DNA from: Nostoc cf. commune SO-36 | Lineage (GTDB): Bacteria > Cyanobacteriota > Cyanobacteriia > Cyanobacteriales > Nostocaceae | Assembly: GCF_023734775.1 (NCBI RefSeq) | Contig: NZ_AP025732.1 | Location: forward strand, 3,788,501 to 3,852,500 | Direction of reading: 5' to 3' | DNA: 64,000 nucleotides | In this document: piece by piece, positions 42,297 to 62,810 of the stretch | How the letters are laid out: every line of letters starts with the position of its first letter | Numbering within the stretch: position 1 is the first letter of the stretch | Made by a program: the position numbers and the translations under genes | Notes under the pieces: generated by a model | What the model saw: only the letters and a program-made list of their open reading frames with translations | Databases searched by the model: none | Told to the model about the DNA's origin: nothing

Positions 42297-43403
42297 CTAT
42301 AACCAACTGTGATTAATTTTAATTCCTCGGCTTTGCATTACTTCTTCAAATAAATCTGTTGGTAGTGCTTCTTCCACAGCAAAAACACCTGGTTTCTTAA
42401 GTTTACCTTCTAGCAATAACTGGGCAATACTACCTGTACCGCAACCAGAAGCTACAGCCGTATTTTCATGCACTACAGTTGAACAATAAACGGCGGTTTT
42501 ACCATCTTTTTGCCCTGTAACTTCTGAACGAACTGCTACACCAATTCCACTAAAATTATTAGTGACATCTGTCATTGAATGGCTGACATGAGACAGAAAT
42601 TCAATCATGTAACGGCGCTGCATTAACCACTTGGGAAAAATATGTGCTGCAATCCAAGTTAGATGATTGTAAAAATCGGGTACAGAGCCAAACTTAGTAA
42701 TTACAGTTTTTACTGATGGGAAAGCTTTGGGCAGTGTAAAGGTTTCTGGCATATCAAACCAGTAAACTCCGGTGCGTCCATAGGGAGGTGGAAAATCAAC
42801 TAATTCTCTTTCACTATAAGGCTTAATTATCTGCCATTTTCCATCTATCCAAGTCTCAAAAGGATACTGCAACCCAAGAAAAGTTGTCCGCATCACTGTA
42901 ATGCCAGCACCGCCAGAACCGGAAACTAAATAACTTAAATGGATCTTTTCTGGTTTATCAAATTGTTCAACACCTTGACGTACCATGCTGTTAGAAATAC
43001 CAGGAAAAATACCAGTATTAATAATTGCTGTCACACCAGCAGCAGCAGCTTGTTCACTAAAATTGAGAGCTTTGCTGGTATAAGAACGATGGTCGCTGAC
43101 ATCTAGATAATTAACGCCTTGAGCAATACAGGTTTCGAGAACATTAGTATCTCGATAGTGAAATGGGCCAGCACAATGGATGACTAAGTTAGAGTTTGCG
43201 ATCGCATCTTGCAACTTGTCAACTTCTGCCAAGTCCAACACCAAAAACTGCACTTGTCCTCCTGAAGACAAGCTAACAGCCTTGCCAAACTCCGCAGAAC
43301 GTCCAGTAATCGTAATTTGAGCCTGCGTATGGGTAGCGAGATCCTGAGCAACACTGCTACCAATCCGCCCCCGTCCACCAAGAATTAAAACGCTGTCTGT
43401 CAT
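42297..43403 (-). CDS. Saccharopine dehydrogenase-like NAD(P)-binding oxidoreductase
   Basis: 368 residues. The Rossmann fold starts at VLILGGRGRIGSSVAQDLA, with downstream AIANSNLVIHCAGPFHY and the C-terminal alpha/beta domain YLVSGSGGAGITVMRTTF. This fits the saccharopine dehydrogenase/SDR-related superfamily of short trans-acyl reductase-like enzymes. The true substrate is unknown; lysine metabolism should not be assumed. It is transcribed in the same direction as the carotenoid desaturase-like gene upstream, 221 bp away, so they are likely separate units. Confidence 0.8.
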   Translation of the reverse strand: MTDSVLILGGRGRIGSSVAQDLATHTQAQITITGRSAEFGKAVSLSSGGQVQFLVLDLAEVDKLQDAIANSNLVIHCAGPFHYRDTNVLETCIAQGVNYLDVSDHRSYTSKALNFSEQAAAAGVTAIINTGIFPGISNSMVRQGVEQFDKPEKIHLSYLVSGSGGAGITVMRTTFLGLQYPFETWIDGKWQIIKPYSERELVDFPPPYGRTGVYWFDMPETFTLPKAFPSVKTVITKFGSVPDFYNHLTWIAAHIFPKWLMQRRYMIEFLSHVSHSMTDVTNNFSGIGVAVRSEVTGQKDGKTAVYCSTVVHENTAVASGCGTGSIAQLLLEGKLKKPGVFAVEEALPTDLFEEVMQSRGIKINHSWL

Positions 43404-48946: not shown

Positions 48947-49816
48947 TTAACTCCTGGTTTCGATATCGTATAACTGGCATAGAGTGAGGAGTTTTTGTTT
49001 GAGGCGATCGCGCACATTCTCAGGTGATACAATCACGCAATCTTCCCAATACCGCGATACTTCTCGAATCAACCAAAAATCATTAACTACTCTCCGCACG
49101 ACTTGGCGCACATCTCCAATAACTTCATCTTTAATGTCATCTTCTTTAGGTTGATAGGCTTTAACTAAGCCTTGGCGAAAATGCAAGTACACTTCTAGAT
49201 AACCTAGTTCTCCACGCCAATTTCCACTGGCGGGTATAGTTGCCATTGATTCGATGCGGTCTAGACGCAAGCACCGATTGTGCCATAGTTCTGGTAAATC
49301 AGGAATATCGTTTTCTACGTCTTGAGTTTCTTCACACCAAATCATTAAGTAAAAACGTCTCTCAAAGAAACGAACTTCAGCATAGCGAACTGTATATGCT
49401 AGTTCATCACCTTGAGAGTTTTGATAAACAAGGTAGAAAGGCTGTTGTCTCTTGATTAACTCTTCAATTTGAATTCGCCATGCAGGAGCAGGTTGACTCA
49501 GTTGTTTCATCAGCGATTGACGCAAGGGAGCTTCAAGATTACTACGCTCTAACAAAAGTGTAAGTACAGTTTGAGCTTCCCCTATCTGACCTGCATCACT
49601 CAGGGCTTTGATAGCTTTGTGTAAAGCGTTAACTTGGTTTGAGTCAAGGGTGAAAGGCTTTCCGACCTCTACAGATTGTTGTGCGATCGCTACTATTAAC
49701 CCCGAAATACTGGGTTCTTTGCCCCAAGTTATATTGAGTTGGCGAGCGATCGCTTCTAGTTGTTCCTTGGTTCCTGGCGGAATTGACAGTGTAATCGTTT
49801 CTTTTTTTCTCGGCAT
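48947..49816 (-). CDS. Ribbon-helix-helix plus WYL-domain transcription regulator
   Basis: 289 residues. The N-terminus (MPRKKETITLSIPPGTKEQL through GLIVAIAQQ) fits a CopG-type ribbon-helix-helix DNA-binding motif. The C-terminal half is a WYL domain (PFYLVYQNSQGDELAYTVRY, FYLMIWCEETQDVE, CLRLDRIESMATI) followed by a WCX-like extension with DVRQVVRRVVNDFWLIREVSRYW. A WYL protein (Sll7009) represses the type I-D CRISPR locus of Synechocystis 6803, and this gene sits upstream of a type I-D locus, transcribed away from it. Control of cas or of the nearby mini-array is therefore a reasonable inference. Confidence 0.85.
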   Translation of the reverse strand: MPRKKETITLSIPPGTKEQLEAIARQLNITWGKEPSISGLIVAIAQQSVEVGKPFTLDSNQVNALHKAIKALSDAGQIGEAQTVLTLLLERSNLEAPLRQSLMKQLSQPAPAWRIQIEELIKRQQPFYLVYQNSQGDELAYTVRYAEVRFFERRFYLMIWCEETQDVENDIPDLPELWHNRCLRLDRIESMATIPASGNWRGELGYLEVYLHFRQGLVKAYQPKEDDIKDEVIGDVRQVVRRVVNDFWLIREVSRYWEDCVIVSPENVRDRLKQKLLTLCQLYDIETRS

Positions 49817-49986
49817 TTATAAAATGTACTTGCACTTTTGATTTACTTGTGCCATACTTCTATTTGTAATTGTAAATCAGGATATTAACTTCAAGTGCAT
49901 GGACAGATGCAAATAATTACGTTCATTAAGGGAAAGTGTAACCACATTGCTTTGATGCTCTAGCAATGCGGTTGTCAGCGAGACAT

Positions 49987-50013
49987 TAAAAAAGCCAGAG
50001 AGTAACTCTGGCT
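49987..50013 (-). terminator. Intrinsic terminator of the mini-array transcript
   Basis: On the minus strand AGCCAGAG-TTACT-CTCTGGCT forms a perfect 8-bp stem followed by TTTTTT. It begins exactly where the second degenerate repeat ends and precedes the WYL gene. Confidence 0.85.
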
Positions 50014-50111
50014 GACCAACCCTGATAGGGATTTGTTTGCAAAAAAAACTGACCCCTATGTATATATGTCACTATTTTCAATCCCTGATAGGGATTGTGA
50101 AGATATTTGAG
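50012..50111 (-). CRISPR. Degenerate two-repeat mini-CRISPR, candidate Cas-guiding regulatory RNA
   Basis: Read on the minus strand, the first pseudo-repeat occupies 50111-50075 and matches the 37-nt I-D repeat at about 27 of 37 positions, including the stem CCCTATCAGGG and the 5' handle ATTGAAAA. The second pseudo-repeat (50048-50012) keeps only AAATCCCTATCAGGG. The gap is a 26-nt pseudo-spacer (50074-50049), shorter than the 34-39 nt spacers of the array. An intrinsic terminator begins at its end. Position (upstream of cas genes), degeneracy and short spacer are the marks of CreA/CreR guides that steer Cascade to repress rather than cut. Function inferred. Confidence 0.7.
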
Positions 50112-50262
50112 GTCACAAATAAATATAACCCAATATGACCCCAAACTAGAGGTTCGGGAAAATAAAATCAATGTTTATATGCCACTAGACAAACAATATG
50201 CCTATACTAGGAGCAGGTAGATTTCGTTCAACCTGCAAGAGGTCATAGGTCATGACTACTCA

Positions 50263-50421
50263 GTGGAATATATCGCTCACAAGATTGCTGAATGTCTGGT
50301 TCTGATTGACAAGTATCAATGCGAAATCCTTCGATTGAGGAGGGTAATTGCAGATATGAAATGTCAACCCGTAACTAATGACGAAGGCGAAATCATAAGT
50401 TATAACGACTTTGAGAACTAA
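50263..50421 (+). CDS. Possible 52-residue protein, GTG start
   Basis: Open frame VEYIAHKIAECLVLIDKYQC through SYNDFEN, with no ATG and no clear ribosome site. The in-frame stop upstream lies near 50219. It could be a small conserved cyanobacterial protein or a relic. The amphipathic helix suggests it may be real, but support is weak. Confidence 0.3.
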   Translation: MEYIAHKIAECLVLIDKYQCEILRLRRVIADMKCQPVTNDEGEIISYNDFEN

Positions 50422-50470
50422 ATCTAGGTAGCATTTAGCATTATATGATTAAGCACAATAAGCTTCGACC

Positions 50471-50596
50471 ATGACCGATGATCGTTTGCTGTCCAGAATT
50501 TCCCTTGACTCCAATATTTGTTTCGGTAAACCTTGTATTAGAGGTCATAGTATAAACCATGAACGAACAAACATTACTAGAAAGAATCACATTTAA
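50471..50596 (+). pseudogene. Truncated DUF433 antitoxin remnant
   Basis: MTDDRLLSRISLDSNICFGK followed by PCIRGHSI is the start of a DUF433 protein, cut off at residue ~28 by junction with the intact DUF433 gene that begins at 50559. It looks like an incomplete tandem duplication. Confidence 0.7.
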
Positions 50597-50810
50597 CCCT
50601 CAAATATTTGGTGGTAAACCGATAATTCGAGGTCGTCGCCTAGCTGTTGAACATATTTTAGGAATGTTAGCAGCAGGAGATACTATTGAAACTTTGCTAG
50701 AAGCTTATCCCTGGTTAGAACGGGAAGATGTACAAGCCTGTTTAATCTATGCACGAAGGTTAGTTGGTCATGAACGAATTGAACCTTTATTGATAGAATC
50801 CCCACGGTGA
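50559..50810 (+). CDS. DUF433 family antitoxin
   Basis: 83 residues with the family signature (ITFNPQIFGGKPIIRGRRLAVEHI) and a winged-helix-like C-terminus (YPWLEREDVQACLIYARR). DUF433 proteins are paired with DUF5615 PIN-like toxins. The stop codon overlaps the GTG start of the toxin by 4 nt, so the two are translationally coupled. It stands between the mini-array and the cas operon on the same strand as cas. Confidence 0.93.
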   Translation: MNEQTLLERITFNPQIFGGKPIIRGRRLAVEHILGMLAAGDTIETLLEAYPWLEREDVQACLIYARRLVGHERIEPLLIESPR

Positions 50811-51166
50811 AAATACTACTAGATACTTGCATTAATGCTAGGGTGCGTACCGATTTACAAACGGCCGGGTATGATGTAGTTTGGTCTGGAGATTGGCCAA
50901 AAGATCCAGGTGACGAGGAAATTTTAGCAACCGCCTATCGTGAAGGTAGGATTTTAGTCACCCTTGATAAAGATTTTGGAGAGTTAGCAATTCTGCGGGG
51001 AAATCCTCACTGTGGTATCTTGCGCTTAGTTAATCTCTCAACCAAAGAACAATCAATAGTTTGTTTGCGGGTACTTCAGCTTTACGGAGACGAATTATTC
51101 TCTGGTGCAATTGTAACTGCTGAATTAGATAGAGTCAGAATTCGCCCACCTGAAAATAGGGCTTGA
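50807..51166 (+). CDS. DUF5615 PIN-like toxin
   Basis: 119 residues. The PIN-like acids are in KILLDTCINARVRTDL (Asp6), the mid-domain DPGDEEILATAYREGRILVTLDKDFG block, and ILRLVNLS. GTG start overlapping the antitoxin stop. These proteins are predicted RNases of the DUF433/DUF5615 toxin-antitoxin type. It precedes cas10d by 111 bp; whether both are read from one promoter is not clear. Confidence 0.92.
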   Translation: MKILLDTCINARVRTDLQTAGYDVVWSGDWPKDPGDEEILATAYREGRILVTLDKDFGELAILRGNPHCGILRLVNLSTKEQSIVCLRVLQLYGDELFSGAIVTAELDRVRIRPPENRA

Positions 51167-51277
51167 AAATTCATTCAGTAAAAACTCGTACTAGTGACGC
51201 AATAAATTAAGACAGACTATGGTGTTTGTTGACCACTTTGTGAGACTGAGTTTGGTATTAAATCTATATCTTTGAAT

Positions 51278-54020
51278 ATGATTAAGCGCAGTCGGCTTTT
51301 AAATGCTCCTCCTAAAACCTTGGAGGAGATTTATTTCACTGAAATTCGCCCCCAGCTTTACGAAAACCATGCACATCGTCATCAAACTGGCGTGAGAACG
51401 GGTACAACCCTTGCAGAACATCTCGATTCGGCGTGTCAGTTCATTTTGACAGTCAGCCGAATAGCAGAAGTCCCAGAAAATAAAAGACCTTTGCTACTAG
51501 CCGCAACTGCTGTACATGACCTGAATAAATTAGATCCCCAAGAACGAAAAGTCAAAACCTTAGCTAGAAACCAGGAATTTTTACGAGAACAACTTGAAAA
51601 AGCTTGTGTACTTACCTTTGTCGTCTCAGAAGATGATTTGGAGTTAGTCAGAAAGCTAATTGAGCGCCATTCAGGTCATAACGTCAGCGATGGTTCAAGG
51701 TTTTTACCAGAAGACCCAAATATTGAACGATGGGCGGCGATGCTTACAGCTGCGGATTTTATTTGATTTAGGAATTCCAGATGTACAACGTTTTCGCAAA
51801 CTGGAAAAAGAATTAACCGTTGCTATTGGACGAAGCTGTAACCTTTTTAGAATACGCATATCTGAGGATAAAGGCTATATTACAGCCCTATTGCTGGGTG
51901 CTTGCGAAGAAGTTTTACAAAAGTATGGGTTAAATCCTTTAGCAATTTTCCCTGATGGCGAACTTTTTGAAGGGGAAGCCTTACCAAATGTTGATTTGAC
52001 AAAAGAAATAGCTGTTGTTTGGCAAATTAAAATTGACCAAGTTTTTGGAAATAATATCGAAAGACTTGTCAGAGCTACGAAGGATGGTATTAAAGTTACT
52101 CATCAAGCCATCCAACAAAATATTGAGGAAGTATTGATAAATGTTGAGGCTCTTTTAGAAAGGAAAAAAGCTGGTTATAAATCAGAAAAGATTGCTAAAG
52201 ATGTAACTAAGTGGGGGGAAGGGGCTGGTGCAGACGCACTAATAAAGGCGGCTGAACTTCAGTTATTACCTGTAAGTAATGCAGAAGAATTTGCTATATC
52301 TGAGGGTTTAAAGGCAGCTTACCTCAGTTATAGAGAAGCCGGATTAAGCCCTAAAGAAGTTTGGGATAAAATCGCTCATCATACGGGTATATCTGAACTT
52401 CAGCGTACTGCAATTGAGCCGTTTAATGGTCAATATGGGCGACCTTTATTTGCTGCTAAGGCTGCTGTTAAAGGACTTGAGGGTATTAAAGAAGCTCTAA
52501 AAGAATCTTTTCAACTAAGGAAGGAAAGTACACAGATATCTGAAGAAACAGAAGTATCTGAAGAAATGATTGCAGCCGTTAGCAGAATGGTAAATTTACC
52601 TTTTGCTATTCGCTTAAATGGAGCGAATGATTTAAATGCTTATGTAGAAGCAAATCCCAGACAAAGATGCTCTTTAGGTTCTACTTCCACTGATATAGAT
52701 GAGCTAATTTCAGATAATATGCCTCCTGGTACAAAAGTACAAGCTTTTTCTAACCGCTTACCGGGTGGTATCAGTGCTGAACCTAAAAGACAAGCAGATT
52801 CAATTGCAGCTTTAGCCTACCAATTAATGGCAGTTGGGGCAAACTTTCCTGCTGTTAAAAAACAAGACCCGCTTTATTTGCACTTAGCATTACCTAAAGG
52901 TTCGGCTCCAGAACTGTTGAGAATTTGGCGTGAACTTTTAAAACAACTTGCAGCGACAAATGCTGAAGGTGGTACTGTCACAGTTGATGAATTGAAATTA
53001 TATAAAGATAACCAGCTTGAATTTAAAGCTAATAAAGTAGTCGGTTTAGCATTACCAAAGCGTCCTGATTTTGTTCATACATCTGTCATTGTTCCTTTAC
53101 TTTGGGGAGATGTTAATAATTCTTTAGCTTTGCTAAAATCACTAAGACTTGCTTTAGAGATTTCCTTGTCTTTAGATATTGGCTTTCCTTTTACTCTCAG
53201 TGGAAACTTAGAGGTAGAAATATCAACTAATAAAGTTGACGATAGGATTTTTGGAAGAGTAGAAGGAATTCCATCTGCACTTATACGTCTACTTGGAAGT
53301 GGTCAGTATAAACGTTTTAAGAAAGAAGAAATTAAGGAAGATAGAGAGACTCTAAGTGCAGAAAGAATTCTTGAGCGGCTACGTTGCATTGGCAAACTAG
53401 CAACATCTGTTGCAAGTATTCAGAAAGCTGATGATTGTTTGTATGATTTGGCTCGTGCTTGTGTCAGACCAATTGAACTTTATTATGTCTTGCTACGTTG
53501 GACTCTGCGAGAACAAGACGAACCGAATTTGAGTGTTATTTGGAGTCGTATTTGTGAACCGTTAAATATTTTGTTGGAGAACCTTATGCCGGATGATAAC
53601 TCGTTATTAACTAAGTATCTCAAAGAAGCTGCTCAACTTGCGGCAGAAGGCAAAATTTGGGGAAGTTCTTTTAAACGAACTGCTCAAGCCGAACCGTTTA
53701 CAGCTTTTATTGCTGCCATTCGTTCTCAAAAGTCTTATTTGGGTTTGGATGTAATTTTTGCCGCTTTAACACAGCAATATCATACTCGTTTAGACCGTAT
53801 CCGGGAGCATCGCGTAGGTGCGACAAAGTTGGAACAAGTTAAACGTTATTACGAGGTATTACGAAAGCTATATGAGGAGGTTTATTCAGCACGTCCTGAA
53901 AAGTTTTTGTCTGACCAAAAAACTTTAGAAGCTGCTTATTTATTTTTCCTTGAAGAAGCACGTAAACAGCTTAAAGTCCAATCTGAAGATGAATCTGTCG
54001 AAACAACTGCAACTGTTTAA
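51278..54020 (+). CDS. cas10d: Type I-D Cas10d (Csc3) with apparent one-base frameshift
   Basis: ATG at 51278 (MIKRSRLLNAPPKTLEE); an in-frame TTG lies two codons upstream. The first 163 codons carry the HD nuclease: His48 (LAEHLDSAC) and His80-Asp81 (TAVHDLNKLD). They end at a stop after ADFI. The protein clearly continues in the +1 frame (DLFDLGIPDVQRFRKLEKEL) to 54020. A run of TTTT at 51757-51760 would give an intact gene if it were TTT. The remainder (~750 residues) is the I-D large subunit with degenerate palm region. Total restored length ~913 residues fits Cas10d. In type I-D the HD domain resides here rather than in Cas3. Real decay, ribosomal slippage at the T run or a read error all remain possible. 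Confidence 0.85.
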
Positions 54021-54037: not shown

Positions 54038-55072
54038 ATGTCCATTTCAAAACTTTCCTCTGTACTAGCAACAACTTATGAGAACTTCCCTAAAGGACGT
54101 TTTATCACTTTAGTTGTTTTACGCACAACTCATTCTGAAACTATCTTTCGTACAGAGGGTTCAGGTGAGCCAATGTGTAGCGAATTTGTTCAAGCTGGTT
54201 TAGAGGGTGAAAATCAAAAAGCTATAATTCAACGCTTGGTAATGACTAAACGTAAACAAGTAGCACCAGAAAGACGCTATGGACGAGAACATTTAAGAGC
54301 GCATGAGCTTTTATACACTAACCCTAAAGATGGCGCTCTTTGTTCTTTAAATACTAATGCACCTTGTGAAATGTGTGCAGATTGTTTCCTTTACGGCTTC
54401 GCGGCTGGTGGTGGTGGCGCTCAAAAAAGTCGCATTTGGACTGAAGATGCTTTTAGTATTTTACCTGCTAGTGATGTTGTAGGCGATCGCACCATAAATG
54501 CCATCTACGAAAATGGCACAATGCGCGATGAAAAAGGTAATGCCTCAACAGCCTTGAATACCAGTGAATACATCAAACCAGGAGTGCATTTTCTGGATGT
54601 CGTCACCCTAAAAGATGTAACTGCTGATGAACTGCGCTATATCGTTGGTAACATTCTTTTCACAAGTCGTTACGGTGCAGTTTCCAGTCGTGTTGGACGC
54701 ATGGAAAACGAGATATTAGGTGTATTTGGCAGTATTACCGAACTTCCTAGTTCTCTGGAACTTGTACAAGCTACTTATGATGTCTTAGGTAAGCCTTTAG
54801 AACACCCTTTGAATATTAATCAATTAATTACAGCCAGCAAACAAGTAATTGCTAACTGGAAAAATAAGAGAGGGGTTTCTGTGCAGCTATCTGAAGAAGA
54901 ATTAGCAAATTTACTGACTGATGTAGAAACTAATTGGTCAGAAGTTGAACGTGATAATTTTCTCAAGCGTTTAACCCAATCTTATGAACCCTTCCGTCAG
55001 GTTGCAACTGAAAAAAACAAAGGCAAAGGTAAGGGTAAAGGAAAAAATACACCAGTTGAAGTAGAGAGTTAA
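54038..55072 (+). CDS. csc2: Type I-D Csc2 (Cas7d), crRNA backbone subunit
   Basis: 344 residues. Diagnostic features are FITLVVLRTTHSETIFRTEG, a Cys cluster at 102, 110, 113 and 116 (CSLNTNAPC, CADC) that fits the Csc2 zinc site, and IVGNILFTSRYGAVSSRVGRM. The C-terminus is a Lys/Gly tail (GKGKGKGK). Cas7d subunits coat the crRNA in the effector. A GGAG box is 8 nt before the ATG; the gene starts 17 bp after cas10d and ends 2 bp before csc1, so the genes form one operon. Confidence 0.96.
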   Translation: MSISKLSSVLATTYENFPKGRFITLVVLRTTHSETIFRTEGSGEPMCSEFVQAGLEGENQKAIIQRLVMTKRKQVAPERRYGREHLRAHELLYTNPKDGALCSLNTNAPCEMCADCFLYGFAAGGGGAQKSRIWTEDAFSILPASDVVGDRTINAIYENGTMRDEKGNASTALNTSEYIKPGVHFLDVVTLKDVTADELRYIVGNILFTSRYGAVSSRVGRMENEILGVFGSITELPSSLELVQATYDVLGKPLEHPLNINQLITASKQVIANWKNKRGVSVQLSEEELANLLTDVETNWSEVERDNFLKRLTQSYEPFRQVATEKNKGKGKGKGKNTPVEVES

Positions 55073-55074
55073 AT

Positions 55075-55833
55075 ATGTCAACAATTCCTTTTCAGCAGGC
55101 AAAACTTGTTGAATTATACTGTCTTGAACCAGTTTTTTTTGCCTCTAGGGAGTTGTCTGATACCTATTACACTGAGGGGGTAATTGGGAATTATGCTCTT
55201 ACCTATGCTTTAGGTAAGGTAAATTCCCCCTATCGCCTTCAAGGTCAGGCTACAGGACGACCAACCTACAAAGAAGATTTGCAACCAATAGCGCACGATT
55301 TTTATATCTTACCAGCTTCACCAGTAGGTAGAGTAACATTCAGATTTGAACGTTTCAATGCTCTTTGTGATGCTTACTGGTATGCAATGACTAATAACCG
55401 TGTTGCTACGGCGCGGGAAGATTTACCATTACAACGCCAAGGTAAAAAACCAAGTTCATTTAGACCGAGTAATTTTCCACAAACTGGAAGACTGCGGATG
55501 ATTGAACGCAGAAACAAATTTCAAACTTTGGTATTTGGAAATCACCAATTACCAAATTATATTCGCCTTGGTAAGTTCATGAGTAAAGTCAAGGTGAATG
55601 TGCTGAATGAATTTCCTGTAACTTTACTACCCGAAGGTGAATATCAAAGCCAACATTATCTAAATGCTGCTGATTTACCACAGCAAATAGAGGCTTTAGC
55701 ATTCGATTTAATTTCTATCCCTCCTGCACCCATCATTAAAAACCTTCGTTTTCGGGGTGCTGCTTGGCAAGTTGGAGAAATGATTGTACCAGCAGGATTA
55801 CATTTTTGTGGTAGAGAAAGTAGCAATGAGTAA
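55075..55833 (+). CDS. csc1: Type I-D Csc1 (Cas5d)
   Basis: 252 residues of the Cas5-like RAMP family, with the characteristic start LVELYCLEPVFFASRELSDT and mid-domain RVTFRFERFNAL. FMSKVKVNVLNEF and the C-terminal LRFRGAAWQVGEMIVPAGL follow. It binds the 5' handle of crRNA and helps with PAM recognition in I-D. It starts 2 bp after csc2 and its last 8 nt overlap cas3. Confidence 0.95.
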   Translation: MSTIPFQQAKLVELYCLEPVFFASRELSDTYYTEGVIGNYALTYALGKVNSPYRLQGQATGRPTYKEDLQPIAHDFYILPASPVGRVTFRFERFNALCDAYWYAMTNNRVATAREDLPLQRQGKKPSSFRPSNFPQTGRLRMIERRNKFQTLVFGNHQLPNYIRLGKFMSKVKVNVLNEFPVTLLPEGEYQSQHYLNAADLPQQIEALAFDLISIPPAPIIKNLRFRGAAWQVGEMIVPAGLHFCGRESSNE

Positions 55834-58108
55834 TCAAAAAATAGTTATCAGATTAGAACCCCGCAGTATTTCAGCTTGTGCTTCACCAGATAAAATATCT
55901 TTCATAAAGAATGCACTTCAACACCAACTAGATGTATTTGAACAATCACAAGATGCAGACATTATCCTTGATTTAGCACCAACTGGCACAGGTAAAACTA
56001 AAGCAGGATTAGCAGTATTAAAACATCAGCCGAATAACAGTGCTGTTTACATTGCTCCAACTAATGCTTTAATTGAACAGCAAACAGAAGCAGCAAAACA
56101 GTTCGTTCGTGATGCTAATTTACCTCATATTGTGAAATCAGCCTCAGCTAAAGATATTAAAAGCTGGCCTGACGATAAAGTTGGTCGTCGTTCAGGAGAA
56201 AAGCTATATAATGTTTTGCGAAATCCCGCTACAGTTTTCGATGATGTTGGGGCAAATATACCAATTCTTTTGGTAACAAATCCTGATATTTTTTACTATG
56301 CAACTTTCTTTGCATATAACAATCTCGATAGAGGCAATATTGCTGCTGGTTTTTACACCAAATTTTCGACAGTCATTTTTGATGAATTTCACCTTTACGA
56401 TGCTAAACAGCTAGTAGGAATGCTGTTTTATCTTGCTTATTCTCAGGTTTTTCGCTTTTTTCAGGACGGACGCAAGATAGTTTTGCTGACAGCTACACCA
56501 GAACCAGCTTGTGAATTAGCATTGCAGAATTTAAAACAAGCTGGTGTGAAAATAGCAAGGATTGATGGAGAAGCAGGTAATACTAATCTTTTACCGTCAC
56601 AAACAGCAGTTAATCTGGAATTAAGACCAAAACCAGATAGTAAAGAAGAGTGGTTAGCAGAGTTAGCAGCAGAAGTTGTCCAACGTTTTCGAGAAAGACC
56701 TGATGAAAATGGTGCTGTAATTCTTGACTCTCTTGATAATATTAATTGTCTATCAACTTTGTTAAGACAGCAAGGAATTGGTGATGACATTGGACGTATT
56801 ACAGGCCCTGCACCTAAAAAAGATAGACAAAGGGCTATGCAATGTAAAATCATTTTGGCTACTAGCACAGTAGATGTAGGATTTAACTTTGAAAGATATC
56901 CTGAACCGAAACGACAAAATTTAGATTGGTTGATTTTTTCAGCACGCGATCGCGCCGCATTTTGGCAGAGAATTGGTAGAGTAGGGCGTGTCTTAGGTAA
57001 ATCTGAAACTAATATTGATTCAGAGGCTATTGCTTATTTACCTGCTAACGCTTGGGAAGAAGGTTTAAGCTCTCTAGATACGACTGGGGGACGTACAGCG
57101 TTAAAAGACTTACTTGAAACACTTCCCTGTTTAGATAAGCCTTTTTTAAAAGCTTACTGGCGTTCAGAAGCATTTCTAGAAATTGCCCGTCCCTTGTTGG
57201 AATTGGAAGAAATGCTTGAAGGTTTAGCTGAGGAAAAATTGATTTTGGATTTGTTCAATACTCTAAAATCTATTTTTGACGGAAACAGAACTTGGGATGA
57301 TTATCGCTACAGAATGAAACTTTTACGAGGTGCTGAAGCTATTGCGAAAAAAACTCCCAAAGAAATCAAAAAACATTGGAAGTATATCAAAGGTGGTCAA
57401 GCCTTTGTTAAAACTTTTATCAAAGCAAATTTTAGTGAAGATTGGGCAGATTTACAAGCGGGACGAGCCACTATAGAAGAATATGTAAACTCATTGCTTA
57501 AACAAGATGATGATGTAATAGCTGAATTAAAAGAATTTGCTGAAGTTTTTAGTACAAGCTATGCACCTTTATTTAGTTTTCGTTCTAATCTGTTTGAAAG
57601 TCTTTCCATTCGTGACCCTCATGGTTTTATTCTAGATGAATCAGAGGAAACAAAACTAGATCCTTTTCATCTATTACGTTATTACGAATTTATCCAAAAT
57701 GGTGATTATATTGAAGTCACCAGTCGCGCTACTGAAACTTATGAATTGAGTTTTCGATTGCGTTATAATGATAATTGGCAAGAATTTATCAGTACAGAAC
57801 TGAATAAACTTACAGCTTTTAAAAATTGCCAAATTATCCGCAGTACTGGAGGGGCAATACGACCAACACCCCTAATACAAGCTTTAAATAAACATCTGTT
57901 ACCAGGAGTAATTATTTGCCCCAGAACAAATGCTGCTGTTATTTTCCAATTAAACAAGCAAGGAATTACTTCTTATCCAATAACCATTGTTTGTAATGAT
58001 ATGGAGAAAGAATATAGATTCTTTACAGGCTTGTCAGGAATTTTAACAATGGCAATGAAGTTTAAACAATTACGTCTTCCAGATGATGAGGTTTTTATTG
58101 CGGGATAA
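55826..58108 (+). CDS. cas3: Type I-D Cas3' helicase (no HD domain)
   Basis: 760 residues from ATG at 55826, overlapping csc1 by 8 nt (ATGAGTAA). The in-frame TTG at 55784 is not needed. Helicase motifs: Walker A LAPTGTGKTKAG (~50-61), Walker B VIFDEFHLYDA, motif III LLTATPE, and motif VI WQRIGRVGRV. No HD nuclease is present; in I-D that activity is in Cas10d. It unwinds target DNA after Cascade binding. Its position after csc1 differs from the Synechocystis 6803 I-D order, where cas3 is first. Confidence 0.96.
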   Translation: MSNQKIVIRLEPRSISACASPDKISFIKNALQHQLDVFEQSQDADIILDLAPTGTGKTKAGLAVLKHQPNNSAVYIAPTNALIEQQTEAAKQFVRDANLPHIVKSASAKDIKSWPDDKVGRRSGEKLYNVLRNPATVFDDVGANIPILLVTNPDIFYYATFFAYNNLDRGNIAAGFYTKFSTVIFDEFHLYDAKQLVGMLFYLAYSQVFRFFQDGRKIVLLTATPEPACELALQNLKQAGVKIARIDGEAGNTNLLPSQTAVNLELRPKPDSKEEWLAELAAEVVQRFRERPDENGAVILDSLDNINCLSTLLRQQGIGDDIGRITGPAPKKDRQRAMQCKIILATSTVDVGFNFERYPEPKRQNLDWLIFSARDRAAFWQRIGRVGRVLGKSETNIDSEAIAYLPANAWEEGLSSLDTTGGRTALKDLLETLPCLDKPFLKAYWRSEAFLEIARPLLELEEMLEGLAEEKLILDLFNTLKSIFDGNRTWDDYRYRMKLLRGAEAIAKKTPKEIKKHWKYIKGGQAFVKTFIKANFSEDWADLQAGRATIEEYVNSLLKQDDDVIAELKEFAEVFSTSYAPLFSFRSNLFESLSIRDPHGFILDESEETKLDPFHLLRYYEFIQNGDYIEVTSRATETYELSFRLRYNDNWQEFISTELNKLTAFKNCQIIRSTGGAIRPTPLIQALNKHLLPGVIICPRTNAAVIFQLNKQGITSYPITIVCNDMEKEYRFFTGLSGILTMAMKFKQLRLPDDEVFIAG

Positions 58109-58184: not shown

Positions 58185-58805
58185 GTGAAACACTATCAAC
58201 AACAAACCAACGCCTTCCCCAGCGATTACCTAAACAACTTGTGGGGAGAAATCCAAGCTTGTCCTTACTTTGCTATCAACAACCTCAACCGCGATTTTGT
58301 CGCCACCAAAGGATTTTCTGTAGTATTTCAACGTTCTGGATTACCAAAAGTAGAACAGCAGTTTCCCTACTTCAAGCCTTACCTCGATTTAGCTCTCCAG
58401 CCTAGTTGTAATGCTTTTTACCTCAATCCTTTACAGCTAAAGGAAGGCTCCCGCGTCGATCCGCATATCGATCGCTCCTTGCGTTCCTACTCCAAAACTA
58501 TTGAACCACCTGCGGTTGTCAGTGTGCTTTATGTACGAGTACCAGCAGATATGGAAGGGGGAGAACTGGTATTGCGATCGCACAAACGCCAACTTGGGCA
58601 AATTAAGCCCCAATTCAATACTTTAGTTTATTTTCAAGGTGATTTAACCCATTCGGTTAACGCTGTCAAAACCCCAGGAAATCGCCTAAGTCTCGTTTGT
58701 GAACAGTATAGTTTGAGTGAAACTGAACTCCAGGAAATCCCTGAGTTCACTGTAGAGTCAAGAATCACTCAGTCTACAACCAAAAAGAGAAAGTATGCCT
58801 CATAG
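58185..58805 (+). CDS. 2OG-Fe(II) oxygenase embedded in the cas operon
   Basis: 206 residues starting at GTG (58185). The double-stranded beta-helix residues are visible: His94 and Asp96 (VDPHIDRSL), distal His156 (DLTHSVNAV) and Arg167 (GNRLSLV) for 2-oxoglutarate, the full iron facial triad. SVLYVRVPADMEGGELVLRS is the central strand pair of P4H-like members. It lies 76 bp after cas3 and its last 11 nt overlap the start of cas6 in another frame, so it is co-transcribed. I know of no Cas role for this family. It could hydroxylate a protein or a base, or be a passenger gene. Confidence 0.88.
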   Translation: MKHYQQQTNAFPSDYLNNLWGEIQACPYFAINNLNRDFVATKGFSVVFQRSGLPKVEQQFPYFKPYLDLALQPSCNAFYLNPLQLKEGSRVDPHIDRSLRSYSKTIEPPAVVSVLYVRVPADMEGGELVLRSHKRQLGQIKPQFNTLVYFQGDLTHSVNAVKTPGNRLSLVCEQYSLSETELQEIPEFTVESRITQSTTKKRKYAS

Positions 58806-59631
58806 TTTAGTGTTGAATTTGCTACCTCAATCGCCTATTCCACCACAGTATCTCACAGGTAGACATCTCCACGCCTTATTTTTAACCCTCGTTAGTTCTG
58901 TAGATAGCACATTAGGCGATCGCTTGCACGATTCCACCGCAGATAAAGCTTTCACCCTTTCTCCCCTCCAAACTAACTCCCCCCTTTTGAAGGGGGGTAG
59001 GGGGGGATCTAAATTGCAATACTCACATCAACAACCCATTCCCGCCGGAACTCCTTGTTGGTGGCGCATCTCTTTATTAGATGACACTCTATTTGGCAAA
59101 CTTACCCAACTCTGGCTAAATCTTAATCCCAATCGCCCTTGGCATCTTGGCCCGGCTGACTTGTATATTACCAGCATTCAAGGCACACCCCAATCTATTC
59201 AACCTTGGGCGAATGCCAATACTTATGCTCAATTATACGAAGAAGCTAGCGATCGCAATTCTTCCATTAACCTTAGCTTTTCCACACCTACCGCCTTCCG
59301 TCAAGGACAGTATGATACTACTCTTCCTACCAGAGAATCTGTTTTCAATTCCCTACTTTCGCGGTGGAATAAATACAGTGGCATAGAATTTACTCAGATT
59401 GCAATTGAATCAATCTTTCCCTCATTTGTCAATATTCACACAGAAATATTAGCTGATTCTCGCAGCAAATTTATTGGCATCCTTGGCGAAGTTACCTATA
59501 AGATTTTAGGAGCAATTGAACCAATCCAAATTAAGCAAATTAACGCTTTAGCTGACTTTGCTTTATATACTGGTGTCGGAAGAAAAACAACGATGGGTAT
59601 GGGGATGATGCGACGGCTGTATTCTCCATAA
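58795..59631 (+). CDS. cas6: Cas6 crRNA endonuclease
   Basis: 278 residues. The N-terminal RAMP domain opens LVLNLLPQSPIPPQYLTGRHLHALFL, with candidate catalytic His at about 24 and 26. The C-terminal Gly-rich loop GVGRKTTMGMGMMRRL is typical of Cas6. It cleaves the pre-crRNA repeats. Residues ~62-72 (SPLLKGGRGGSK) come from an in-frame dispersed repeat absent from related proteins as far as I can judge. It starts within the last 11 nt of the oxygenase gene. Confidence 0.92.
   Translation: MPHSLVLNLLPQSPIPPQYLTGRHLHALFLTLVSSVDSTLGDRLHDSTADKAFTLSPLQTNSPLLKGGRGGSKLQYSHQQPIPAGTPCWWRISLLDDTLFGKLTQLWLNLNPNRPWHLGPADLYITSIQGTPQSIQPWANANTYAQLYEEASDRNSSINLSFSTPTAFRQGQYDTTLPTRESVFNSLLSRWNKYSGIEFTQIAIESIFPSFVNIHTEILADSRSKFIGILGEVTYKILGAIEPIQIKQINALADFALYTGVGRKTTMGMGMMRRLYSP
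58979..59011. repeat. C/G palindromic repeat inside cas6
   Basis: CCCCCTTTTGAAGGGGGGTA is a member of the family also seen at about 18346, 28562 and 29608. Here it is a multiple of three long and adds residues to Cas6 instead of breaking it. Confidence 0.8.
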
Positions 59632-61640: not shown

Positions 61641-61908
61641 GTTTCTGCATTTCAAATGCGCGGAAGGGTAGGTGTACAAATTCCCCAGCCCTAAAAAAAT
61701 ACTTCTATCCCAAATCCAGCAAGGCTTTCAACCTATTAGTCGCCTAATCCTCATCCGCGCAATCTCTGAAATGTTTATCAAAATTCGATTTCAGCCTTTA
61801 AATTTTCCTGGCGCTCTTTTCAAACAGATTCTCTAATGCTATGATTGCCCTTGAATCGCGCAACCGCACCTTGAAAACTAAATATAGCTTGGGTTTCAGG
61901 CTCCCGCT
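61641..61908 (+). promoter_or_regulatory. CRISPR leader
   Basis: 268 bp between cas2 and the first repeat, A/T-rich near the array, with no reading frame. The array ends with a degenerate repeat on the far side, so the leader is on this side. The motif CAACCGCACCTTGAAAACTA just before the array is of a type seen before cyanobacterial arrays. It should hold the array promoter and the Cas1-Cas2 anchor. Confidence 0.8.
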
Positions 61909-62666
61909 ATTACAATTTATCAAAATCCCTATTAGGGATTGAAAGATTGTAGTGTATGCTTAAAAACTTGTGTTGACAATAATTACAATTTATCAAAATC
62001 CCTATTAGGGATTGAAAGTGTTATTTCGTCGTAAATGAAACTGCAATCATCAGATTACAATTTATCAAAATCCCTATTAGGGATTGAAAGTTATTCGTAT
62101 TTCTGTTCCGAAAGTTCCTATTTCATTACAATTTATCAAAATCCCTATTAGGGATTGAAAGTTATCGCTCCATCTTACACCGAGTTTTTCTAAGATTATT
62201 ACAATTTATCAAAATCCCTATTAGGGATTGAAAGGGATTATTTGCTAGCTAACAAGTGGACTAGTCCTTATTACAATTTATCAAAATCCCTATTAGGGAT
62301 TGAAAGAAGTAACCAAATATATGAACTTGGCAACTAGTTAATTACAATTTATCAAAATCCCTATTAGGGATTGAAAGTAATTTTCCAGTCGCTCCGACAC
62401 GATTGCCAAGGATAATATTACAATTTATCAAAATCCCTATTAGGGATTGAAAGGCTTCAGGAGAAGGCTAGCTACTGGAGTATGTCCCTTATTACAATTT
62501 ATCAAAATCCCTATTAGGGATTGAAAGTTACATTAAGTGGGAACTCAATAGAATTCTCGGTAAAATTACAATTTATCAAAATCCCTATTAGGGATTGAAA
62601 CGCAGCTTGACCAAAAGTATCTGCGATCGCTTGTTTATTACAATTTATCAAAACCCCTATTAGGGT
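61909..62666 (+). CRISPR. Type I-D CRISPR array, 11 repeats, 10 spacers
   Basis: Repeats of 37 nt (begins ATTACAATTTATCAAAATCC, ends ATTAGGGATTGAAAG) start at 61909, 61982, 62054, 62125, 62198, 62270, 62341, 62417, 62491, 62565 and 62637. Nine end in G and the tenth in C. The eleventh is truncated with AAAACCCC and TAGGGTC changes. Spacers are 34-39 nt. The stem is CCCTATTAGGG, and the crRNA 5' handle is ATTGAAAG. Orientation is +, same as the cas genes. Spacer 10 contains a HIP1 octamer. Confidence 0.98.
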
Positions 62667-62683
62667 CGGCGATGTCTAATGAT

Positions 62684-62810
62684 TAGAGACTTCCAAATAA
62701 AAAAATATCCCAAAACTGACGCAAAAATTCTTTCTATTTCTTCTCTCTCTGTGTTCTCTGCGTCTCTGTGGTTCGTTTATTTGGATAATTTATTTCTTGG
62801 AAATCTCTTA
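62684..62810. repeat. Dispersed element at the distal end of the CRISPR array
   Basis: Imperfect inverted ends AGAGACTTCCAAATAAA and TTTATTTCTTGGAAATCTCT flank 'ctctgtgttctctgcgtctctgtggttcg' repeat sequence found elsewhere near 45260 and 21600. It begins about 18 bp after the truncated last repeat. Confidence 0.6.

Follow-up and report, generated by a model that had tools for sequence, protein, structure and literature searches.

What does a two-repeat mini-CRISPR do when it lies beside the cas genes of its own type I-D locus? The question is raised by Nostoc cf. commune SO-36, in which such an element belongs to a locus with a WYL regulator gene on one side and the CRISPR array on the other. 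An earlier note, made from the sequence alone, had read the element as a candidate CreA/CreR-like guide RNA, and a target, a PAM, and a set of related loci now lend support to that reading. We propose that it is probably a type I-D CreR-like autorepressor through which Cascade acts on its own genes; we rank this first as the best explanation, with a CreTA-like module as the main rival. Type I-D systems are type I/III hybrids that have been studied in Synechocystis and have provided an editor from Microcystis, and the accessible portions of a review (PMC10212523) contain no match for mini-CRISPR, autoregulation, or crRNA-guided. Within the partial texts covered by our literature search no such RNA is recognized in type I-D; I-D predictions in the CreR paper (Liu et al. 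2023) are possible.

The type I-D locus

The window (the whole 64-kb stretch of DNA analyzed) carries a locus that is type I-D by PADLOC models, with Cas10d, Csc2, Csc1, Cas3d, Cas6d, and Cas4d. The WYL-domain regulator gene (48947..49816) is on the minus strand. On the plus strand are a DUF433 and DUF5615 gene pair (50559..51166), which lies between the promoter described below and cas10d, followed by cas10d (51278..54020), the csc2 (cas7d), csc1 (cas5d), and cas3d genes (54038..58108), cas6 (58795..59631), and the CRISPR array (61909..62665; 11 copies, 10 Rfam matches), which is the source of the reference repeat. The cas10d gene is not intact and occupies two reading frames, with a split near 51763 that is either a real change or an assembly error. 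It is the only broken cas10d among the 22 loci with a mini-CRISPR described below, being intact in the 21 others; cas10d is also broken in L070 and L083, both without a mini-CRISPR. The window also contains an ordinary TPP riboswitch (RF00059; 25350-25446, minus strand).

Anatomy of the mini-CRISPR

The mini-CRISPR lies on the minus strand, and its copies were scored against the array repeat of the locus in a 37-nt register. Copy 1 (50075..50111) matches the array repeat at 27/37 positions, with 20/21 in the core AATCCCTATCAGGGATTGAAA, and has both the stem and the handle ATTGAAAA (50082-50075). Copy 2 (50012..50048) matches at 22/37 positions, with 16/21 in the core, and retains the stem, the handle being gone. 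Between them is a guide, or pseudo-spacer, of 26 nt (50049..50074), with the sequence TAGTGaCATATAtACAT, and adjoining copy 2 is a terminator-like hairpin with an 8-pair stem and a T run (49988..50013). The coordinates and anatomy given in the earlier note, with two degenerate repeat copies opposite to cas and 26 nt apart, a terminator next to them, and a handle in the first copy alone, thus hold. Apart from the array region (61800-62800), there is no other repeat match of at least 24/37 in the 64 kb. The stretch 49800-51300 contains two terminator-like sites, where shuffled sequences have 0.6 on average, and the RNA from 49984-50115 folds better than 200/200 shuffles (z, -4.35). Guide start and second stem are 44 nt apart, as against 52 to 57 nt in the array. 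Two known kinds of element share these properties: a mini-CRISPR adjoining its own cas genes is a feature of CreR, and a crRNA-like gene with two degenerate repeats is a feature of CreTA. Just upstream of the mini-CRISPR, on the same strand, is an inverted repeat (TTTGGGGTCA/TGACCTCAAA; 50104-50147) that is possibly an operator of the mini-CRISPR's own promoter.

A target at a promoter facing the cas genes

The I-D review (PMC10212523) gives GTN or GTH for the I-D PAM and takes the first 8 to 10 nt minus position 6 as the type I seed. About 100 bp from the mini-CRISPR, the guide matches the sequence TAGTGgCATATAaACAT (50171..50187, minus strand) at 15/17 positions, including 10/10 seed positions, with mismatches at positions 6 and 13 and with the PAM GTC (50188..50190, minus strand) directly before it. 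A -10-like box that faces cas, TATACT (50203..50208, plus strand), follows shortly downstream of this target; the PAM-adjacent seed match at a promoter that the earlier note had asked for is present. In 20,000 trials with letter-shuffled guides, a 10/10 seed match with GTN arose 13 times within the 1460-bp intergenic region; over the whole 64 kb, 8 of 500 trials gave one. The pattern GTNTAGTGNCATATA has one zero-mismatch match in the 7.4-Mb genome, which is the target, and one more place at one mismatch; the reversed-pattern control has six places at up to one mismatch.

The promoter-like match (50179-50208) is one of four found, as against 5.6 in shuffled sequences, and the promoter scan alone is therefore no evidence; it is the position of the promoter relative to the target that counts, not the promoter score. 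The guide match, PAM, and -10 geometry are as in a CreR, whose guide partly matches the promoter of the cas operon; in the window, the promoter concerned may be that of cas. As in CreTA, the target belongs to the promoter of a small gene that is divergent from the guide. The earlier note had pointed to a TAGTGAC match at 51192-51198, which we set aside as a guide target, since it extends over 7 nt behind TAC and the 15/17 match behind GTC is far better. A 9-nt match that had been placed in an unrelated gene at 42297 is in fact a run at 42560, with TAT in the PAM position.

Distribution among related loci

The search for Csc2 covered 79 relatives, 388 genomes of the order, and the named genome contigs (78 loci). 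Loci in which a cas10d N-terminus is present yielded 89 distinct upstream regions, and a WYL gene bounds 84 of these. A mini-CRISPR with a GT-flanked matching site is present in 22/89 regions, 17 of which have 10/10 matches at positions 1 to 5 and 7 to 11; the other five (L033, L038, and L049, and also L131 and L149) have 9/10 seed matches. Markov-simulated regions reach the 10/10 level in 8/890 cases, compared with 17/89 for the real ones. The conservation of repeat-like sequence and terminator in related loci, which had been left to be looked for, is found: the distance from guide start to second stem is 39 to 45 nt in 20/22 loci (61 nt in L065, and L092 has no clear second repeat copy), the full second handle is retained in just 2/22, and a T run follows in 20/22. 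Intact modules are carried by, for example, Nostoc paludosum FACHB-159, Cylindrospermum sp. NIES-4074, Baaleninema simplex PCC 7105, and Microcystis viridis FACHB-1342. The remaining 67/89 regions have no mini-target pair, many being just 70 to 280 bp long and some more than 1 kb.

Because the fixed repeat pattern overlooks divergent mini-CRISPRs, it was supplemented by target-based and hairpin-based detectors. Both kinds presuppose seed and GT, and only the repeat-defined test of 26 minis described below is blind to the two. Hits in L057, L072 (of which L125 is a duplicate), L125, L158, L161, and L204 were judged to be chance and left uncounted, as were places in L213, L214, L217, L222, and L224. 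L219 had two more such places, but a further one, which lies between cas3 and cas10d, was retained in the 38-row profile.

Pairing between guide and target

The deciding test was blind to target and PAM, so as to be free of circularity. Twenty-six mini-CRISPRs were defined from repeat sequence alone (L037 and L098 being represented by second copies only), and for each the highest-scoring 16-nt match in the surrounding 500 bp was selected with no PAM condition. GT precedes this match in 23/26 minis, including a weak 11/16 match behind GTT in L035, versus 2/26 for reversed spacers, and at least 12/16 positions match in 22/26, versus 5/26 in the control, none of which exceeds 12.

Among the 22 minis with targets, which are not independent because spacers are common to related loci, positions 1 to 5, 7, 8, and 11 match in all 22, position 9 in 21, position 10 in 18, position 13 in 14, positions 14 and 15 in 20 each, and position 16 in 18, with position 6 matching in 5, position 12 in 9, position 17 in 8, and position 18 in 3. 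In type I R-loops, each sixth base is flipped out, and the dips at 6, 12, and 18 fit this arrangement. The same dips are evident when 38 loci are weighted by 10 spacer clusters, with match rates of 0.13 at position 6, 0.23 at 12, and 0.14 at 18, and rates of 0.26 to 0.37 from position 19 onward. Forty loci were entered in this profile and two (L076 and L091) were dropped by a stricter hairpin rule; seed and GT are conditioned in it, and positions 6 and 12 to 24 and the third PAM base are free. The third PAM base is C in 19 and T in 19 of the 38 rows.

The sequence of guide and target differs among at least 10 clusters, and seed variants of homologous spacers agree with their own targets in 84/87 cells, compared with a mean of 58.4 and a maximum of 76 in 2000 permutations. 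Both the co-variation and the 38-row profile used targets picked for 9 to 10 seed matches, a selection that favors agreement, and we therefore treat the co-variation as supporting evidence only. The first 23 guide nucleotides are identical in the window, L039, L096, and L156, and target position 6 in these four is nonetheless G, T, T, and T, respectively.

The geometry relative to the promoter is also regular. A -10-like hexamer (at least 4/6) starts 13 to 17 nt past the target at 18/19 minus-strand sites of the window's subfamily, versus 14.3% of 1206 control GT sites, and at the level of at least 5/6 the figures are 13/19 and 3.9%. Cascade bound at the target would sit over the -35 region.

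Small genes downstream of the target promoter

Downstream of the target promoter there is usually a small gene of family A or B. Family A proteins are about 54 to 63 aa, with an AlphaFold2 model (mean pLDDT, 90) of a helix at 5-38 and a short hairpin, and family B proteins are about 62 to 76 aa, with a model (pLDDT, 88) of three helices and two strands in winged-helix order. Pfam and NCBIfam give no convincing family for either. The B model looks like a DNA-binding winged helix; a Foldseek search returned 542 matches at E <= 10, with top rows that are mostly winged-helix proteins and none at E <= 0.001, and we therefore claim only a fold class. In the window, the family A gene (50263..50421, plus strand) has GTG at 50263 as its first in-frame start, an ATG at 50252-50254 being out of frame. 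An unrelated 98-aa open reading frame takes the place of the small gene in L065, and neither A nor B is present in L033 and L092.

The small gene is followed either directly by cas10d or by a gene pair (DUF433-DUF5615 or nucleotidyltransferase-DUF86) and then cas10d. Such pairs, which we take to resemble toxin-antitoxin pairs, recur between the small gene and cas10d in the window (50559-51166), L043, L052-L054, L091, and L174. We note that the cas10d start of the window (51276-51298) is echoed at 19/23 positions upstream of the DUF433-DUF5615 pair (50443-50465), as though an insertion or recombination had brought the pair in and separated the family A gene from cas10d. Only 8 to 25 bp separate the end of the small gene from cas10d in L148, L039, L096, L156, and L177 (with starts set by homology in all but L177), and repression of the promoter is therefore most simply repression of the Cascade genes. 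In loci of this arrangement, the target promoter is likely the main cas promoter judging from the gene spacing; there may be a second promoter directly before cas10d, notably where 0.6 to 1.5 kb of other genes intervene.

Family B was found in 40 of 388 genomes of the class. An accepted pair lies within about 3 kb in 14 of 30 B loci, some of which (e.g., L180 and L188) were already in the earlier set, and the other 16 have none. Of 20 B loci examined for context, 17 have cas10d or csc2, and the other three have a WYL gene and a Cas3-like match only. Family A is present in 9/388 genomes.

Comparison with known systems

The published systems are compared here from excerpts of the cited papers. 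CreR is a mini-CRISPR RNA with a limited match to a cas promoter, for which repression of cas through the effector of the cell itself is proposed, and is generally uncoupled from toxin genes (PMC12737573, PMC13131331); it has been named for types I-B, I-E, and V-A (PMC13131331). The present element resembles it in guide and cas-promoter match, but it is in type I-D and its controlled unit usually opens with a small protein gene. With CreA/CreTA of type I-B Haloarcula (PMC10989794) and type I-F Acinetobacter (PMC10097628) it shares two degenerate repeats, a short guide with an 11- to 17-nt match and a PAM, and a divergent small gene downstream of the target, and with the I-F system also the position in a cas intergenic region (PMC10097628). 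In contrast, CreT elements are toxic RNAs or mini-ORFs, with a 33-bp ORF in I-F (PMC10097628), whereas here the genes code for conserved proteins of about 54 to 76 aa in the same direction as cas10d. In Haloarcula, spacers no longer than 24 bp bring about repression and no cutting (PMC10989794), and in I-F CreA pairs 10, 12, 19, and 20 are dispensable and pairs 2 to 5, 7 to 9, and 13 to 17 are needed (PMC10097628), which by analogy appears close to the present I-D profile. The tracr-L RNA of Streptococcus pyogenes II-A similarly guides an effector to its own cas promoter through an 11-nt match, but belongs to Class 2, with Cas9 and an extended tracrRNA and no repeat pair (PMC8616872). Racrs (RNA anti-CRISPRs) are likewise isolated repeats handled by Cas machinery, but they are phage-borne and inhibitory, whereas the present element is in a cas locus together with a target (PMC10651486).

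Proposed function and alternatives

Taking together the anatomy, target, PAM, register, promoter position, co-variation, and spread, all of which are read from the DNA, we infer a mechanism of transcription, Cas6 cutting, binding, and repression, and with it the downstream gene that matters. The mini-CRISPR would give a short crRNA-like RNA, with a Cas6 cut at copy 1 presumably leaving an 8-nt handle and with copy 2 and the terminator presumably closing the 3' end. Within I-D Cascade, this RNA would recognize GTY and some 16 bases that span the promoter's -35 region, with pairing at positions 1 to 5, 7 to 11, and 13 to 16 that, by analogy with CreA/CreR, may be sufficient for binding and too little for cutting. 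Transcription would be lowered of a unit that starts with a small protein (A or B), and because this unit runs into cas10d, Cascade would feed back on its own genes. If this is correct, RNA-guided self-control of CRISPR-Cas extends to type I-D and adds a layer of control to that of the WYL repressor. The pairing tolerance of I-D Cascade at a promoter can be read from the natural guide-target pairs, with flipped bases 6, 12, and 18 visible, and two uncharacterized small protein families are tied to I-D loci.

Autorepression is favored by the gene order, with the small gene and then cas10d, and by the mini-CRISPRs without a good target, which are those that have lost the promoter/target region (L035 and L036) or copy 1 (L037 and L098). 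Against it stand the 67 regions without a pair, as well as L036, in which both repeats are present and the target is absent. The window itself also fits poorly, as its cas10d is in two frames and its A gene has no in-frame ATG; because of these two lesions, the device in the window is possibly in decay, unless they stem from assembly errors. A broader version, which is possible but doubtful, is that the guide steers the Cascade genes plus a protein dedicated to the module, either the winged-helix B or the helical A, which is freed when Cascade is lost or busy and is a toxin or regulator, such that CreR and CreTA are fused in one protein-coding operon and the module is widespread in cyanobacterial I-D loci.

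The main rival, which we consider unlikely, is a CreTA-like addiction module in which the guide RNA serves as antitoxin against a toxin, freed on Cascade failure, that is encoded by the first gene (A, B, or C) behind the target promoter, with cas10d being incidental. The layout is that of I-F CreTA, in which the target of creA is followed by a mini-ORF divergent to creA (PMC10097628). Differing small-gene families occupy one place, and 7/9 family A loci have a mini-target pair. The joint damage to cas10d and the A start codon in the window counts for an addiction module, as does L045, which lacks a mini-CRISPR and has B in two frames; the former is, however, one case, for which chance or an assembly error is possible. 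Full-length B without a pair in L055, L058, L061, and L068 argues against addiction and for autorepression, and the same is true of the mini-CRISPR and target being kept where the small gene is absent (L033 and L092) or, as in the window, damaged. The 16/30 B loci without an accepted pair and the DNA-binding appearance of B also speak against a toxin.

It is very improbable that the match is instead a repeated binding site for a protein, such as the WYL protein or B, with no RNA pairing. Both proteins are likely DNA binding and some loci have two tandem or inverted sites (see below), but the match begins exactly after the repeat handle and behind GT, dips at 6, 12, and 18, and differs in sequence among at least 10 clusters. 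Least probable is a decaying array or Racr-like solitary repeat with no role, for although the repeats are degenerate, the spacer is shortened, and some copies (L035, L037, and L098) are clearly decayed, the guide, terminator, target, and PAM are conserved across many genera and the target-blind test contradicts it.

Variant loci

Two target sites for one guide, in tandem or inverted, are present in L054 (region positions 311 and 510), L198 (2408/2415), L199 (1841/1872), and L201 (1357/1385). No mini-target pair was found in pSYSA of Synechocystis 6803 (L175) or in the plasmid stretch of Nostoc sp. UHCC 0302 (L176), and a second, pSYSA-like I-D subfamily holds further pairs; in this subfamily, cas3' and cas10d can flank the module, and plus-strand targets are frequent. 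In the WYL-cas10d region of Microseira wollei (L058), a terminator-like piece, AAAAAAGCCAGAG, is fused to the B leader, and the mini-CRISPR and promoter seem, from this junction, to have been deleted together. L210 has two B genes (8001 and 11855) in one I-D locus, with a pair only at the B gene that follows cas3.
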